Of a stretch of 56,852 bases of DNA, positions 46,993 through 56,852 are shown piece after piece. The stretch's first letter is position 1. Each line of letters opens with the position of its first letter. This DNA is from Allobosea sp. GTDB taxonomy: Bacteria > Pseudomonadota > Alphaproteobacteria > Rhizobiales > Beijerinckiaceae. Made by a program: the position numbers and the translations under genes. The stretch is taken from positions 1 through 56,852 of the forward strand of contig NZ_JAFKFX010000048.1 of NCBI RefSeq assembly GCF_017308075.1, written 5' to 3'. Below the pieces are notes generated by a model, which was not told the origin of the DNA, did not search any database, and worked only from the letters and a program-made list of their open reading frames with translations.

Positions 46993-50721
<3,729 letters not shown>

Positions 50722-50759
50722 TTGGTCCGAGCGGCTGAAGGCCGACCCAAAGATCCGCA

Positions 50760-50798
50760 CCTAGCAGCCAAAGTTTTGTTCTAGCTCTGGCTGCTAGG
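50760..50798. terminator. Hairpin after nrdJ, cut by the IS481 insertion
   Basis: Perfect 11-base arms CCTAGCAGCCA (50760-50770) and TGGCTGCTAGG (50788-50798) with a 17-base loop, 39 bases after the nrdJ stop. It has no T tract now, because IS481 sequence begins at its foot (the CTAG at 50794-50797 is the target). It may be the nrdJ terminator whose tail was displaced to beyond the window. Confidence 0.45.
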
Positions 50799-50807
50799 TG
50801 TTCAGTC

Positions 50808-50812
50808 CCGGC
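50808..50812. repeat. 5-bp target duplication CCGGC, left copy
   Basis: CCGGC here and again at 55840-55844, exactly outside the two TGTGA... transposon ends. Five bases is the duplication length of Tn7 and Tn5053-type transposition. Deleting one copy and everything between restores the IS481 reading frame. Confidence 0.9.
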
Positions 50813-50844
50813 TGTGAGTGTGAGTGGAACCATAATTTGCCTTT

Positions 50845-50887
50845 TTGACGCATCAGCGCACCGCAATTGACACATCAGCCTGCCGCA
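50845..50887 (+). repeat. Left-end tandem 21-bp repeats (TnsB/TniA binding-site-like)
   Basis: Two direct copies at 50845-50865 and 50867-50887, a 22-base period (two helical turns), 17 of 21 bases identical, each of the form TTGAC.CATCAGC...CCGCA. Inverted relatives lie at the right end (55728-55748, 55750-55770). Such arrays are where the DDE transposase binds in Tn7-like elements. Confidence 0.75.
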
Positions 50888-50938
50888 CCTCGCGGCAGGC
50901 TTTCTCGGGCCCTCCTACTGCATCGCAGGCGTCAGAGA

Positions 50939-51038
50939 ATGGCGCGTACGCGGTTGACGACGTCGCCCTGCGGCGCGCCCCGCAGTCCGGGGGCGGTTCA
51001 GCCCAGTGAGATAGCGGCCGTGCATCTCCACGCCCCTA
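50939..51038 (+). pseudogene. Possible displaced 5' end of tniA
   Basis: ATG 50939 opens a frame (MARTRLTTSPCGAPRSPGAV, QPSEIAAVHLHAPR) that is cut at the TA where the IS630 remnant begins. It is at the expected place and strand for the start of tniA, between the left end and the transposase body, but the residues are too few for a firm homology call. Confidence 0.3.
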
Positions 51039-51177
51039 GAGCGTCGGACCTGAAATCGGAATCTGTGGGATTCCCCTGAGAGCGGCTTTGTGATTCACCG
51101 TTTGGGGAGGTGGATCATGGGTCGCAGCTATTCGGACGATCTTCGCGTGCGTGTTGCCGGCTTTGTCGAGGCTGGTC
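51039..51177 (+). mobile_element. IS630-family remnant (left end and first codons of its transposase)
   Basis: Starts after a TA dinucleotide (51037-51038) with GAGCGTCGGACCTG and runs to a transposase start at ATG 51117 reading MGRSYSDDLRVRVAGFVEAG, the standard N-terminus of IS630-type transposases of Rhizobiales. Homology stops at about base 51177, where the tniA body begins. The rest of the IS and the native start of tniA are both missing, so a deletion followed the insertion. Confidence 0.75.
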
Positions 51178-52743
51178 AACCGCGAGTTCAAGCTCCCCGA
51201 GCAGGTCCGTCACCTGATCGCGGAACACGCTCCCAGCTACTGCGACGATCGCAAGGTCACGGGCAGGAGTATCTGGAAGAAGGTCGAGGAGGAGATCGCG
51301 AAGCTCAACGTCGCCAGGGCGGGCATGAACATGCCGGCTCTGCCGGTTCCCAGCGAGAAGGCGATCTACCGCGCCATCAAGAAGCTCGATCCCTTCCGCG
51401 TCATGGCCGGCCGTGAAGGGTCGGAAGTTGCGCAGCGGAAGTTCGCGATCGTCCACGAGGGCATTCGCCCGCAGCGCCTGCTCGAGCGCGTGGAGATGGA
51501 CGTTTGGAAGGTGACGATCACGGCCCTCTTGGTCGATACCGAGACCTGGGAACGGGTGACTCCCGTCGAACGCAAGCAGGTCACCCGGGTTCGCTGCTAC
51601 ATTACGGCGGCCATCGATTGCGCTTCGCGCTGCCTGCTGGCGCTCTACCTTCACGTCGATGCACCGTCCGGCGCCTCTTCGATCGCCGCACTCCAGATGA
51701 TCACGGAGAACAAGGCGCGCCTGTCGGAGTCGACCGGTCTGTCGACCGTCTGGTTCATGCGCGGGCGGCCCGAGCTGTTGGTGACGGACGGCGGTCCTGA
51801 GTTCAAGGATCACCGCTTTCGCGGCGTCGTTGCAGATCTGAGGGTCGCTCATCAGTTCGCGCGGCCGAAGCATCCCCAGGACCGCGGGACGATCGAGCGC
51901 TTCTTCGAGACGCTCGAGGAATACCTCTCGGCCGAATTCAGTGGCCGGACGTTCCGCAATGTCGGGGAGCGTGGCGAGTACGAGGCCGGAGACCAGGCCA
52001 GCCTCACCGTCGACCAGCTCCGCGAAGTCCTCCCGATGATCGTGAACCGGTACCACAACACGCCGAATGAAGGTCTCGGCCGGGAAACGCCTCTCGACGC
52101 CTGGAAGCGCCTGGCGCGCGAATGCTCGGTCCGCCCCGCTCCTAGCCCGAGCGAGGCGCGCAATATCTTCGGCATCCGCACCGCCCGCCGCATCAGCGGC
52201 CGCGGCGTCCGCTTCCTGGGCCTGCACTACCAGTCCGAGGACGTCCAGGAACTGCGCCGAACGATCAACCAGCGTGAAGCTCAGATCCGCGTCGACCCGT
52301 ACGATCTCGGTGAAATCTCGATCCAGACCGAGAAGGGCTGGGTTTCGGTCAAGTGCGTCGAGGACTTCGCGAAGGGAGTTAGCGCGGCAGAATGGATCGC
52401 GGCCAACGCCCGGCTGCGTCAGCGTTTTGCCGCTCAGGCGGCCGTCGCGCGCCCGGCGCTGATGGAGGCAATCGAGGCGATCCGCGAGATCGCCCGTAAC
52501 GCTCATCGTACCGCCGGGCTGAAGCCGACTGTCATCACGGAAGGCGATTTCAAGACGGCCGAACAGAACCTGCTTCGGACGTTCCGGATTCGGGAAGAGG
52601 CCGCGAGCCCGGCAACCGACAACGACATCCTCGGCCTCGCGGAGGCAGATGACCTCTCGTCCGACGGCAACGACCTTCTCGAGGAAGGCGACGAGGAACA
52701 CGACGACATCGCCGAAGACGGCGACATGAGCCTGGAGGACTGA
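51151..52743 (+). CDS. tniA: TniA/TnsB-like DDE transposase, N-terminally truncated
   Basis: Catalyses strand transfer of the transposon. The retroviral-integrase core is complete: Asp117 in LERVEMDVWK, Asp213 in LLVTDGGPEFKDH, Glu249 in HPQDRGTIERFFETLE, then a beta-barrel and an acidic tail (EEGDEEHDDIAEDGDMSLED). The frame begins at a GTG at 51151 that lies inside the IS630 remnant, so residues 1-10 or so are foreign. Homologous sequence starts at NREFKLPEQVRHLIAEHAPS, roughly 90 residues into a normal TniA. The DNA-binding helix-turn-helix region that reads the end repeats is therefore lost. The stop overlaps the tniB start (TGATG). Confidence 0.85.
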   Translation: MLPALSRLVNREFKLPEQVRHLIAEHAPSYCDDRKVTGRSIWKKVEEEIAKLNVARAGMNMPALPVPSEKAIYRAIKKLDPFRVMAGREGSEVAQRKFAIVHEGIRPQRLLERVEMDVWKVTITALLVDTETWERVTPVERKQVTRVRCYITAAIDCASRCLLALYLHVDAPSGASSIAALQMITENKARLSESTGLSTVWFMRGRPELLVTDGGPEFKDHRFRGVVADLRVAHQFARPKHPQDRGTIERFFETLEEYLSAEFSGRTFRNVGERGEYEAGDQASLTVDQLREVLPMIVNRYHNTPNEGLGRETPLDAWKRLARECSVRPAPSPSEARNIFGIRTARRISGRGVRFLGLHYQSEDVQELRRTINQREAQIRVDPYDLGEISIQTEKGWVSVKCVEDFAKGVSAAEWIAANARLRQRFAAQAAVARPALMEAIEAIREIARNAHRTAGLKPTVITEGDFKTAEQNLLRTFRIREEAASPATDNDILGLAEADDLSSDGNDLLEEGDEEHDDIAEDGDMSLED

Positions 52744-53819
52744 TGATGAGCATGCAGTTTCAGCACATCCTCGAGGCGCCTGCGGACGACGCCACCGATT
52801 TCCGTACACGCCATGCGTCCGACGCGGTCCGTGCCCGTCGTGTCGCCGCCCTAGAGAAAGTTCACCGCAGCTACCTGAAGACCGACCGTGATAGCGTGCT
52901 CGAGGCAGAATTCGATCGCTTGATCGACACCTCATCGCTCGTGTTCAACGGTCGCCGTGCTGAGGGGCGCGCCCTCGTCGTGGTTGGTCAGAGCGGCGCA
53001 GGCAAGACCCACGCGATCAGGCGGCTGATCGAGGGGCGCCGCGAACTGCTTCCCGAGAACCTTACGCTCGGGATGTCGTTGCCAATCGTATCGATCACGG
53101 CGCCGTCGCCTTGTACTCTCAAGCAGCTCGGCATCGAGCTGTTGCGCTTGCTGGGGTACCCGATCGATCGCGACGTTCGCGAAAACGTCGCCTGGAACCG
53201 GGTCCGCGAGCAGCTTCGGCTCCGGAAGGTCCAGATCGTGCACATCGACGAGGCGCAGCACGCCGTGCGCCTCATGAACGACCATGAGATCCAGAAGCTC
53301 TCCGACACCTTCAAGAACGTGATGCAGCAGCCTGACTGGCCCGTCTGCCTCGTGCTTTCGGGGTTGCCTTCCCTCGTCCAGTTCGCACAGCGGGACGTCC
53401 AGTTCGGCCGCCGCTGCCGCTTCTTGAGCTTCGACGGCATCTCGTTTCCGAGGGACATCAAGCGACTGCGCTACATCGTCGAGGCGATCTCGACCAAATG
53501 CGCTGCCCTCCCGTCCGAGGGCCTGGAGAGCGACGAGTTTCTTGCCCGCCTCTGCCGCGCGGCGGAGGGCCAGTTCGGGCGTGTCATCCAGATCTGCCGG
53601 TCGGCGGCGGAGGAGGCCATTTTCGCAGGCGCTCACACACTCACCGTCAGGCATTTCGTCGACGTCTACGCCGCCGCAACCGGCTGTTCGCCGGATGCCA
53701 ACGTCTTTGCCGTGCGCGACTGGGAATTCGTGCCTACGGGCGTCTCTGGCATCGCTGCGCCGCTTGATGGCGAGGAGGGCGGATCGACCGAACCCAAGCG
53801 CCGCAAGGGGAGGGGCTGA
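52743..53819 (+). CDS. tniB: TniB/TnsC-like AAA+ ATPase, transposition regulator
   Basis: 358 residues. Walker A GQSGAGKTH (82-90), Walker B VHIDEAQH (167-173), sensor region WPVCLVLSGLPSLVQFA, and the C-terminal lid GQFGRVIQICRSAAEEAIFAG. It would polymerise on target DNA with ATP and pass the chosen site from TniQ to the transposase. It starts on the last base of the tniA stop and ends two bases before tniQ, so the three genes are translated as a unit. Codon use is similar to its neighbours. Confidence 0.92.
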   Translation: MMSMQFQHILEAPADDATDFRTRHASDAVRARRVAALEKVHRSYLKTDRDSVLEAEFDRLIDTSSLVFNGRRAEGRALVVVGQSGAGKTHAIRRLIEGRRELLPENLTLGMSLPIVSITAPSPCTLKQLGIELLRLLGYPIDRDVRENVAWNRVREQLRLRKVQIVHIDEAQHAVRLMNDHEIQKLSDTFKNVMQQPDWPVCLVLSGLPSLVQFAQRDVQFGRRCRFLSFDGISFPRDIKRLRYIVEAISTKCAALPSEGLESDEFLARLCRAAEGQFGRVIQICRSAAEEAIFAGAHTLTVRHFVDVYAAATGCSPDANVFAVRDWEFVPTGVSGIAAPLDGEEGGSTEPKRRKGRG

Positions 53820-53821
53820 CC

Positions 53822-55642
53822 ATGCATGCTTCGCTCGCCATGTCCCTTCCGCCCGGCGCGGAAGAGACGCCGACCAGCTTTGCCTCTCGCCTCAGTGCGC
53901 TGCACGGCTGCCCGACCTTCAACACGTTCTGCCTCGACATGGGCTTCTCAGCCTCCGAGCTCATTCGGGGCCACGACGCGGCTCTTGCGCGATTGCAGCA
54001 CGTCGGAGGCGTGCCCGAAGGCACGCTGCGTCCGTATAGTCTCCGGCACTCGAAGGACGGCATCCTGCTCAATGGCGAGGTGCTGCGGCAGCAGTCCTCG
54101 CGGTGCAAGCGGGTTCACATCTGCCCCTCCTGCATCATCGATGACTTGGCCGTCCAGCCCGGCCCCGTCGCAACTCGCCCGTTCGCACGGGCGTCGTGGT
54201 CGCTTGCCTCCATCCGGTCCTGCCACCGCCATGGCATTCCCCTGGTCCCCCTGCACGAACATCGTGCCGGCATCCACGCCTACGACTTCGTCAGGGTCAT
54301 CGAGCCGGTGATCGACACTATCGGCACCCTCGTCGAGCAGGTGGATCCCGCTCCGCATTCGACGCTGGAACGTTATCTGCTGGGGCGCCTGTGGGGCCCC
54401 GCGGTCAACGTAGCGCTGCTTGACACGCTGCCCTGGTATGCGGCGGCCCGTTCCTGCGAGATGACTGGCGCCGTATCCCTCTTCGGCGCGCAGGTTCGCC
54501 TGGCCCGGATGTCTCAGGCCGATTGGTCGCGAGCTGGCGCAGAGGGGTTCCGCATCGCTCAGGGCGGTCCGGTAGCAATCGCGGACCTGATGGCCAACCT
54601 CCGGGCCTCGTCGACGCCTCGCGACTGGGGCCTGCGCACCACCTTTGGCCGGCTATACGAGTGGCTCGCCTACGAGAACAGCGATCCGGTCTATGATCCG
54701 CTTCGCGACGCCATCAGGACCTGCGCCATCGAGACGATGCCGCTCGGCCCCGACGACGAGGTCTTCGGGAAACCCGTGAGCGTTCGGCGGGTGCATTCCA
54801 TCCGGTCGGCGCATCTCCAGACGGGCCGCCATCCGAAGCGGCTGCGCAAGCTTTTGCTCGAGGCCGGGATCATTCGCGACGCCCACATGAAGTCGCCGGA
54901 CAACCACGTCCTGTTCTCGGCGGATCGCGCAGCCGCCTTGCTCGAAGAGGCGCCGGGCTCGATGTCCCTGAACGCGGCGGGCACCTATCTGAATGCCCCG
55001 CGCCTGCACGCCAGGATGTTGTTCGAGCACGGCTTCATCAGGCCGCTCGTCGAAGGAAAGGTCGGCAGCCACGCATTCGCCCGCGGCGAGCTGGACAGCT
55101 TCAGGGACCGCCTCCTCGGGCAGGCGATGCCCATCGCGAAACTCGGCGACGACCAGGCGATCATCCCCGATGCCGCGAAACAGGCCTGCTGCTCGGCGAT
55201 GGAGATCGTCAGGCTGGTCCTCGACGGTCGCCTTGGCTGGGTCGGAAGGCTTGATGGGCGGCGCGGCTATCTCTCCGTCGCCGTCGATGTCGCCGAGATT
55301 CGAGAGCACGTGCGGCTCGAAGATCATGGCGGGCTGTCGCTGAGGGAGGTCGAGCGTCGGTTGCGGACCAGCACCAAAGCCGTCGAGGCGTTGACCGGGC
55401 GCCAGGTCCTTTCGTCTCGTATTGCCAGGAACCCGACAAACCGCAGCCCGCAGACCATCGTCATGCCGGAGGATCTCGCAGCATTCCAGGCGGACTACGC
55501 GAGCCTCGCTGAATTGTCGTCCGATCGGGACGTCACTTCCCGCCGCCTCAAGCGGTCACTCGACGAGGTCGGCATCCATCCGGCCTTCGACCCCGAAACC
55601 GTGCAGGGCTATTTCTATCGCCGGGCCGATCTGCCCTTTTAG
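53822..55642 (+). CDS. tniQ: TniQ/TnsD-like target-selection protein
   Basis: 606 residues, long like TnsD and unlike the short TniQ of CRISPR-associated elements. The N-terminal TniQ domain has FASRLSALHGCPTFNTFCLDMG (~20-41) and a zinc site formed by Cys101 and Cys104 (HICPSC) with Cys134 and His137 (CHRH). The remaining ~400 residues are unassigned; LRTSTKAVEALTGRQVL and SAMEIVRLVLDGRLGWVGRLDG look like helix-turn-helix segments that could read a target sequence. It chooses the insertion site and recruits TniB. Last gene of the transposon. Confidence 0.88.
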   Translation: MHASLAMSLPPGAEETPTSFASRLSALHGCPTFNTFCLDMGFSASELIRGHDAALARLQHVGGVPEGTLRPYSLRHSKDGILLNGEVLRQQSSRCKRVHICPSCIIDDLAVQPGPVATRPFARASWSLASIRSCHRHGIPLVPLHEHRAGIHAYDFVRVIEPVIDTIGTLVEQVDPAPHSTLERYLLGRLWGPAVNVALLDTLPWYAAARSCEMTGAVSLFGAQVRLARMSQADWSRAGAEGFRIAQGGPVAIADLMANLRASSTPRDWGLRTTFGRLYEWLAYENSDPVYDPLRDAIRTCAIETMPLGPDDEVFGKPVSVRRVHSIRSAHLQTGRHPKRLRKLLLEAGIIRDAHMKSPDNHVLFSADRAAALLEEAPGSMSLNAAGTYLNAPRLHARMLFEHGFIRPLVEGKVGSHAFARGELDSFRDRLLGQAMPIAKLGDDQAIIPDAAKQACCSAMEIVRLVLDGRLGWVGRLDGRRGYLSVAVDVAEIREHVRLEDHGGLSLREVERRLRTSTKAVEALTGRQVLSSRIARNPTNRSPQTIVMPEDLAAFQADYASLAELSSDRDVTSRRLKRSLDEVGIHPAFDPETVQGYFYRRADLPF

Positions 55643-55666
55643 TCACGGCGACACGTTCGAACGATC

Positions 55667-55695
55667 AGCCCTTGGGTTCGCCCAAGGGCTTTTTT
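55667..55695 (+). terminator. Rho-independent terminator of the tniABQ operon
   Basis: AGCCCTTGGG (55667-55676), TTCG loop, CCCAAGGGCT (55681-55690), then TTTTT. A perfect ten-pair stem, 25 bases after the tniQ stop. Confidence 0.9.
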
Positions 55696-55727
55696 CATGG
55701 CCGAAGCCTCACGACGGACCGGAGAAC

Positions 55728-55770
55728 TGCGGCAAGCTGTTGCGTCACTTGCGGCGATCCCAGCTGTCCC
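55728..55770 (-). repeat. Right-end binding-site-like repeats (inverted)
   Basis: On the minus strand, 55748-55728 matches the left-end repeats at 17 of 21 bases (relative to 50867-50887), with GTGACGCAACAGC and TGCCGCA. A weaker copy follows at 55770-55750 (about 12 of 21) at the same 22-base spacing. Orientation is opposite to the left end, as expected for the two ends of one transposon. Confidence 0.65.
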
Positions 55771-55834
55771 AACAGAAATCGACCCAAGCAAATACAATGG
55801 CTTAGAGAAATTTTGCGGCAAACCTCGGTTCCAT

Positions 55835-56791
55835 TCACACCGGCATTTGGTGGATTGGATTGAGCCTGAATCGTTCTGGCTCCGAAGTCCAACATTTGCA
55901 GATGAACTCGTAGGGGGTGAGGCCTCGCAGCGTCTTGAGGCGGCGGCCGAAGTTGTAGGCTGAGACGAAGTCGGCGAGGTGCGTTTCGAACTGCTGGTGG
56001 TCGTCGTAGTGGAAGCGCTTGACGGTGGCGTCCTTGATGGTCCGGTTCATCCGCTCGACCTGGCCGTTCGTCCAGGGATGCCTCACCTTTGTCAGGCGGT
56101 GCTCGATGCCGTTCTCGCGGCAGCGCATGGCGAACATATGCGTGGCGTACTGAGCGGTCGGACCGTCGGCGTAGCGCGGCGGGAACGTGAACTGGATACC
56201 GTTGTCGGTCAGGACGGTATGGATCCGGTAAGGCACCGCCTCGATCAGGGCCATGAGGAAGGCGGAGGCGGATGCTCGGCCGGTCTTGCGAACGACCTGG
56301 ACGAAGGCGAACTTGCTCGCGCGATCAATCGCGACATAGAGGTAGAGCTTACCTTCGGCCGTCTGCACCTCGGCGAGGTCGATGTGGAAGTAGCCGATGG
56401 GGTAGGCCTTGAACTTGCGCCTGACCGGCTTGTCGCCTTCGACGTCGGGCAGTCGCGAGATGCCATGCCGCTGGAGGCAGCGATGCAGCGACGAGCGCGT
56501 CAGATGCGGGACCGTGGCCTGAAGCGCATAGAGGCAATCATCCAGCGGTAGGAGCGTGTGGCGTCGGAAGGCGACGATGACGGCCTCATCCGCGACCGAC
56601 AGAACCGTCGATTTCGGTTCGGCCGGTCCTGTCTTGCGGTCGGCCGTCGAACTTCGCTTTTTCCACTTCGCGACGGTCTTCTGATTGATGCCATGGCGCT
56701 TGGCGAGTTGCCTCAGGCTCTCTTGACTATGCTGTATCGCTCGACGGACCGCCTCTGTCGTGCGGGCGCTCCCGTGCAGAACCTGTCCCAT
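55835..56791 (-). pseudogene. IS481-family transposase, C-terminus interrupted by the transposon
   Basis: 318 residues in the present frame. An N-terminal helix-turn-helix (SLRQLAKRHGINQKTVAKWKK) is followed by an rve core with the DDE residues in YFHIDLAEVQT, VLTDNGIQF and HPWTNGQVERMNRTIK, and the closing TSEPERFRLNPIHQMP. The reading then runs into transposon sequence (V, stop). Joining base 55840 to 50807 gives GLNT and a TAG at 50796-50794, the family's usual ending. Only four residues are changed, so it may still function as a protein, but its element's end is now 5 kb away. Start ATG 56791 has AAGGAAG upstream. Confidence 0.88.
55840..55844. repeat. 5-bp target duplication CCGGC, right copy
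   Basis: Right partner of 50808-50812; it lies directly after the transposon end ...TTCACA and inside the IS481 transposase codons for Met-Pro-Gly. Confidence 0.9.
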
Positions 56792-56824
56792 AGCGCTTCC
56801 TTCCACTCGCGCGAAAAGACTGCA

Positions 56825-56847
56825 CCATCAAAGCCTGGGATCAAACA
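56825..56847 (-). repeat. IS481 terminal inverted repeat, right end
   Basis: Read on the minus strand it begins TGTTTGATCCCAGGC and matches the left end that begins at 50799 and resumes at 55845. The four bases CTAG after it (56849-56852) repeat the CTAG at 50794-50797. Confidence 0.75.
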
Positions 56848-56852
56848 ACTAG

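Follow-up and report, generated by a model that had tools for sequence, protein, structure and literature searches.

In Tn7, the TnsD protein reads the 3' end of the glmS gene, and glmS, yhiN, comM, parE and tRNA genes are the attachment sites tabulated for transposons of this kind (PMC11406308, Table 1). Cargo was reported in 96% of 6,549 Tn7-like transposons, the median lengths being 14-29 kb (PMC8649781), and for loci encoding two TniQ-type proteins, one exceeding 400 amino acids has been taken to suggest direct target selection, an assignment that is hard for many of them (PMC10293859). In this work, we characterized a short TniABQ transposon located behind nrdJ in a contig of 56,852 nucleotides from Allobosea sp. 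(assembly GCF_017308075.1, contig NZ_JAFKFX010000048.1, forward strand), the whole of which is referred to as the window. Comparative analyses led us to regard this element, with good confidence, as a dead, internally deleted TniABQ transposon (Tn7/Tn5053-like and apparently lacking TnsA), whose intact relatives home to a point about 20 bp behind nrdJ.

The element spans positions 50813-55839 (5,027 bp), opening with TGTGA at 50813 and closing with TCACA at 55839, and is flanked on both sides by a 5-bp target-site duplication (TSD), CCGGC, at 50808-50812 and 55840-55844. The right flank belongs to a transposase gene of the IS481 family (NF033577, 5.6e-83), whose protein ends in QMPV* with the element present. 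Joining the flanks with a single CCGGC restored an IS481-family open reading frame (ORF) of 326 residues ending in QMPGLNT*, with a C-terminus like those of the intact copies L155 (QMPGLNT*) and L154 (FPGLNT*). Because the joined flanks rebuild this ORF, the TSD is not a product of chance; random 5-mers of the window matched at a rate of 0.0022. A coincidental CCGGC match was considered and discarded on the grounds of the restored empty site. Thus, the ends and the duplication proposed by an earlier, sequence-only reading of this DNA were borne out. The inverted repeats that it described as matching at 18 of 23 bases do exist, being the best tip-to-tip 23-base match and a score that 4 of 20,000 pairs of segments drawn at random from the window also reached, but they belong to a left tip at 50819, whereas the TSD abuts 50813; placing the left tip at 50819 renders the 5-bp flanks unequal.

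The left end (50813-51035, forward strand) displays a repeated TGTGAG tip, an inverted-repeat core at 50819-50841 and subterminal repeats near 50845 and 50867, and the right end contains an inverted subterminal repeat (55731-55748, reverse strand) and the terminal inverted repeat with its final bases TCACA (55817-55839, reverse strand). The extra TGTGAG at the left tip (50813-50824) separates the inverted repeat from the TSD. It is absent from other copies of this end, which have just one TGTGAGTGGAACC, and is perhaps a later duplication. With two subterminal repeats in the left end and an inverted one in the right, at least three matches were obtained in 1 of 100 shuffles, using a pattern composed after the repeats had been seen. 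The interrupted IS481-family element lies on the reverse strand as a terminal 19-bp left piece (50794-50812), closing with the TSD copy and with a tip resembling the other IS481 end, and a main piece (55840-56852), at whose tip the contig stops.

Within these boundaries, tniA, tniB and tniQ are encoded on the forward strand. tniB (52743-53819) encodes a predicted AAA ATPase (PF05621, 8e-14), and tniQ (53822-55642) a protein of 606 residues with a PF06527 match (6.7e-15) over residues 9-141, followed by a long C-terminal part; both proteins appear complete. Conversely, tniA (51179-52743; mechanical ORF 51151-52743) is truncated at its 5' end, keeping the catalytic region and missing 195-200 N-terminal residues. 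A remnant of about 145 bp, corresponding to the left end of an IS630-family element (51036-51184, forward strand, with its right limit between 51178 and 51184), passes directly into tniA, and the tniA ORF starts within it. This stretch matches three other places in the genome at 99, 99 and 87% identity; the copy on contig C60 departs from the window at 51179 onward, and a longer copy is legible on contig C52. We take the family to be IS630, a name assigned by eye from its likeness to IS630-type proteins.

The extent of the truncation was measured against 11 of 15 intact tniA frames, omitting L027 and three frames almost identical to others (L002 to L003; L019 and L022 to L021). In all 11 aligned relatives (711-751 residues, with start codons chosen in the alignment script), 195-200 residues precede the point aligned with window residue 11, and the four frames outside the alignment likewise reach 182-191 residues further. 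When an intact relative was searched against the whole genome (E<=10), no second tniA was retrieved, the window copy being matched from query residue 210. The window TniA matched PF09299 above the cut-off (4.9e-05) and PF00665 below it (1.3e-06), and the intact relative L017 matched solved TnsB chains at 1.9e-32 to 5.9e-13. The end-binding domains of TnsB-type proteins are located in the region missing from the window TniA, and, judged from its sequence, the window transposase is very probably non-functional. Regarding the broad traits of the TniABQ/Tn7-like family, the element has a TniA/TnsB-type DDE transposase with a Mu-type C-terminal domain, a TniB/TnsC-type ATPase, a TniQ-domain protein, and inverted ends with a 5-bp TSD; a complete working transposase is missing due to the truncated tniA, and the element is a derivative of this family rather than a working member. 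TniQ gave no match to solved structures up to E=1, and its search in plasmids returned 50 records, every one below 60% identity. No TnsA was seen in the window element, and without TnsA transposition would be replicative and resolved by some further route.

Four complete relatives were identified behind nrdJ, three in congeneric genomes and one in Chelativorans sp. Marseille-P2723 (G069). The G013 element (38,008 bp; TSD TGCGG) begins 23 bp past the nrdJ stop, that of G016 (74,059 bp; CTCCC) 19 bp past it, that of G018 (76,334 bp; TCTCA) 20 bp past it, and that of Chelativorans (41,366 bp; ACGTG) 17 bp past it. Identical 5-bp flanks were present in all four, with tips set with the flanks in view and hence a leeway of one or two bases each (two in G069), and in all four the left end is oriented toward nrdJ and tniABQ is at the far end. 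The relatives thus display the recurrent insertion behind a conserved gene, at a fixed distance (+17 to +23) and in one orientation, that characterizes homing of the Tn7 type. In the window, nrdJ (46993-50721, forward strand) encodes a class II (B12-dependent) ribonucleotide reductase (PF02867, PF08471, PF12637) and is followed by a segment with a stem-loop (50722-50793, forward strand); this segment recurs just past the right end of the 38-kb G013 element (51 bp, 90%), and therefore these 38 kb went in between nrdJ and the segment.

The interval between the left end and tniA, which in the window consists of 223 bp plus the IS630 stub, comprises 32.8, 68.8, 71.0 and 36.2 kb in G013, G016, G018 and G069, respectively. 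The window element is a deletion remnant and not an ancestral core. A naturally minimal TniABQ element, either ancestral or resembling an insertion sequence as Tn5469 does, which never had cargo and in which IS630 only damaged tniA, would agree with the clean ends, the TSD and the tni genes being alone inside, and has a cargo-free precedent in Tn5469; we nevertheless give it little credence, as the IS630/tniA fusion stands precisely where all four complete relatives have their 33-71 kb. An ancestral or natural minimal element was accordingly rejected as the leading explanation, on account of the headless tniA and the cargo interval of the relatives. It is even harder to credit an assembly artefact, in which the true locus would contain an intact tniA and cargo, and wrong copies would have been joined at the repeated IS630 or IS481: both elements occur repeatedly in the genome, one or the other terminates contigs C51, C60, C6 and C15, and the window itself ends at the IS481 tip, but the missing part of tniA was not found anywhere in the genome (E<=10), and the IS481 flanks with the TSD join perfectly.

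These results modify the sequence-only reading in several respects. Its boundaries of a complete minimal transposon were right, but with a truncated tniA they do not enclose a minimal working unit; its count of only three genes is incomplete, overlooking the IS630 left-end stub and the 195-200 residues absent from tniA. Of the two origins that it offered, loss of cargo is supported by the relatives' 33-71 kb, and the ancestral core found no support given the fusion of the IS630 stub to the headless tniA. Nor is a cargo-free TniQ element without precedent, Tn5469 having been described as one (PMC11406308).

By analogy with TnsD of Tn7, the long C-terminal part of TniQ would recognise the 3' end of nrdJ, with insertion displaced downstream; TniB would recruit TniA, and TniA would join both transposon ends with a stagger of 5 bp. 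An IS630 element would then have landed near the left end of the window copy, and a later deletion would have taken most of IS630, everything up to tniA, presumably including the former cargo, and the first ~195 tniA codons. The window copy itself likely homed to nrdJ.

TniQ relatives were sought in 67 genomes of the genus (E<=0.001) and in an order-wide sample of 397 genomes (E<=1e-5), being found in 25 and 26 of them, respectively, with the window's own included in both counts, and also at four named loci, two of them from Chelativorans. In the genus, TniQ and nrdJ shared a contig in 13 genomes, nine of which (G000, G003, G013, G016, G018, G029, G051, G057 and G063) had TniQ within 100 kb downstream of nrdJ and on the same strand; among these nine, the G057 match is weak (5.7e-4), and those of G051 and G003 are fragments. 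Control positions (the 100 kb upstream, or the opposite strand) contained TniQ in 0 of the 13 genomes. At an assumed chance of 2% per genome, the binomial probability was estimated at 3e-13 in the genus and at 0.01 in the order sample. A contig other than that of nrdJ, or a genome without a placed nrdJ, accounted for 15 of the 34 genus TniQ matches. Chelativorans sp. Marseille-P2723 also fits the position downstream of nrdJ, and in L003 and L004 TniQ and nrdJ are apparently on separate contigs. The end next to nrdJ was legible by pattern in 17 of 30 loci, nine of which were typed by eye: end types A, B or C were within ~35 bp of nrdJ at six loci (G065, G001; G022, G038; G018, G061), the window's end type occupied two (the window and G029), and an A-like tip overlapped the stop codon in G007. 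From these sequence comparisons, the nrdJ 3' end is apparently an attachment site for TniABQ (Tn7/Tn5053-like) transposons, and seemingly an undescribed one: words beginning with 'nrd' or 'ribonucleotide' are absent from the main text of PMC8649781, PMC10293859 and PMC11406308, and a literature search, with subscription journals mostly outside its coverage, found no published nrdJ attachment site for such transposons.

Several observations weigh against homing to nrdJ followed by loss of cargo. Four genus genomes (G027, G028, G039 and G058) have TniQ elsewhere, farther from nrdJ, and the genus genomes are related, so that they cannot be counted as independent events. Of the eight order-sample genomes with both genes on one contig, only two fit (G180 at 56 kb and G451 at 44 kb), and in G271 TniQ is on the control side, upstream of nrdJ; this count omits four of 36 TniQ rows (the window's own, two further G429 pieces and one further G360 piece) and a weak G360 nrdJ row, none of them on nrdJ contigs except the window's own. 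The long intervals of G016 and G018 may include further elements. The window copy is 91 bp past the nrdJ stop and within IS481, as opposed to +17 to +23 in the relatives, thus outside their fixed distance, and ends of its type occur at variable places, with a looser offset than 17-23 bp. Furthermore, no intact element with both ends of the window's type was found in the genus genomes searched, and hence the loss of cargo in the window is deduced from relatives at 39-42% TniQ identity or less.

The window's left end, used as a query, matched seven of the 67 genus genomes, its own included. In G029 it begins 79 bp past the nrdJ stop; four such ends are present in G027, 77-139 kb downstream of nrdJ, and G048 has one at 62 kb; in G011, G037 and G062 the match and nrdJ are on different contigs. 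This end type may read either nrdJ or the ends already parked there. That it ignores nrdJ altogether, inserting in or just behind the left ends of transposons parked at this site, seems to us doubtful. Such behaviour would account for two G027 copies whose starts lie 26 bp into a C-type left end and 58 bp past a copy of the same type as themselves, respectively, for the G011 copy starting 80 bp past a C-type tip, and for the window and G029 copies, which are preceded by a segment possibly representing the left end of another element. However, the left ends of the window (+91) and G029 (+79) face nrdJ like those of the nrdJ-homing relatives, one G027 copy starts 32 bp past a sequence resembling the nrdJ tail (by eye), and stacking is equally expected if every new element homes to nrdJ. 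A broader scheme is likewise unlikely, in which the nrdJ 3' end would serve TniABQ transposons of several genera as a general site of attachment and stacking, with several lineages of end types inserting at a fixed ~20-bp offset and the window's end type specialized in landing in or behind the ends of resident transposons, in a manner akin to the res-site hunting of Tn5053. We retain a deleted element with nrdJ-homing relatives as the preferred explanation.

The cargo of the relatives was sampled in two genomes. In G013, the scan covered 11 of the 24 ORFs listed, with 10 in each library, leaving out the ORF between sspC and sspF; the matches included the phage-defence genes SspA, B, C, F, G and H (E 2.3e-59 to 0) and ThsB (1.3e-126), together with an AAA/M41 protein, an HD-domain protein and a helicase with a ResIII domain. 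Of eight ORFs behind a window-type left end in G027, one had no match, and the others corresponded to Vsr, a C5-methylase, two AAA proteins, McrBC, an AAA/M41 protein, and a TniA that matched the integrase core weakly. TniB and TniQ were not found in the 150-kb stretch of G027 (E<=0.001), and for this reason that element may be damaged too. No resolvase family was detected among the sampled cargo ORFs of G013 and G027, and no Cas effector among these or the window ORFs, other than one weak match to a CAS-IV-A DinG helicase. An AAA/M41 protein of ~700 residues is encoded upstream of tniA in both the G013 (L074, L073) and G027 elements, and is possibly a conserved accessory gene rather than cargo.

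Additional features were noted around nrdJ and the repeated elements. A 4.76-kb remnant (L029, G003:C16, reverse strand) lies 23 bp behind nrdJ, with both ends and only the C-terminal part of TniQ; its flanks are equal only with the right end taken one base shorter, and it is a second, independent deletion derivative at the nrdJ site. The stem-loop behind nrdJ (<=3 mismatches) is present in three of the 67 genus genomes; it may be the terminator of nrdJ itself, or may instead be part of the left end of another element or of an integrase-type island. At G000:C15:474041-474067 (L109), ~580 bp from the contig end, 41 bp are identical to window positions 50695-50735, comprising the last 27 bp of nrdJ plus 14 bp and followed by a different sequence with a stem-loop; this copy resembles the distal attachment site of an integrase-type island, and could otherwise be a decoy target. 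Further copies of the nrdJ tail were seen in G063 (47 bp, 87%) and G043 (78 bp, 78%). The window constitutes the whole of contig C36, stopping at the IS481 tip (56849-56852). Since the ends of contigs C6 and C15 also hold IS481 starts (L033, L034), each with a different flank, there is more than one candidate for the true right neighbour of the window. An array resembling clustered regularly interspaced short palindromic repeats (CRISPR) on G000:C60 (L037, ~1200-1503; repeat around GCTGGACCGCGATCTCTGAAACGCTAATCT, with regular spacing, by eye) is broken by an IS630 copy.

The attachment site of the relatives is of greater interest than the window element itself. If nrdJ is indeed a landing site, whole Tn7-like islands and their cargo, which in our samples was rich in defence genes (Ssp and ThsB; Vsr, C5-methylase and McrBC), could be found and delimited from one marker gene, and one more target gene would join a short list of attachment sites, aiding the study of how TniQ proteins read DNA. 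The small element, in turn, serves as a caution that a tidy 5-kb transposon with perfect ends may be a deletion scar.

Compared with described systems, the window element resembles Tn5053/Tn402 in the set and order of TniA, TniB and TniQ, in its ends of the TGT..ACA type, in the 5-bp TSD and in that no TnsA was seen in it. Those transposons combine tniABQ with a resolvase, whereas the window element, filled by the truncated tniA, tniB, tniQ and the IS630 stub, has no resolvase ORF; neither tniR with a res site nor targeting of res sites (in plasmids or Tn3-family elements) was observed. The TniQ of Tn5053 is also shorter than that of the window (606 residues). While Tn5053 targets plasmid res sites (PMC11406308), the target in the window is an IS481 gene behind nrdJ, and the four relatives are themselves behind nrdJ. 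Tn5469, described as a TniQ element without cargo genes (PMC11406308) and considered mobile because it was found through spontaneous gene inactivation, is likewise comparable to the cargo-free window copy, which differs in its truncated transposase and seemingly lost cargo. The Tn7-like transposons of defence islands (PMC8649781) share with the relatives a long cargo including defence genes, in contrast with the window copy, and the Cas effector genes of CRISPR-associated transposons are not part of the element. With regard to Tn7, the relatives at nrdJ differ in using nrdJ rather than glmS and in their TniA/B/Q set without an observed TnsA, with target recognition by TniQ proposed by analogy; they coincide with it in the fixed short distance behind the 3' end of a gene, the single orientation, the 5-bp TSD and the long cargo (PMC11406308).

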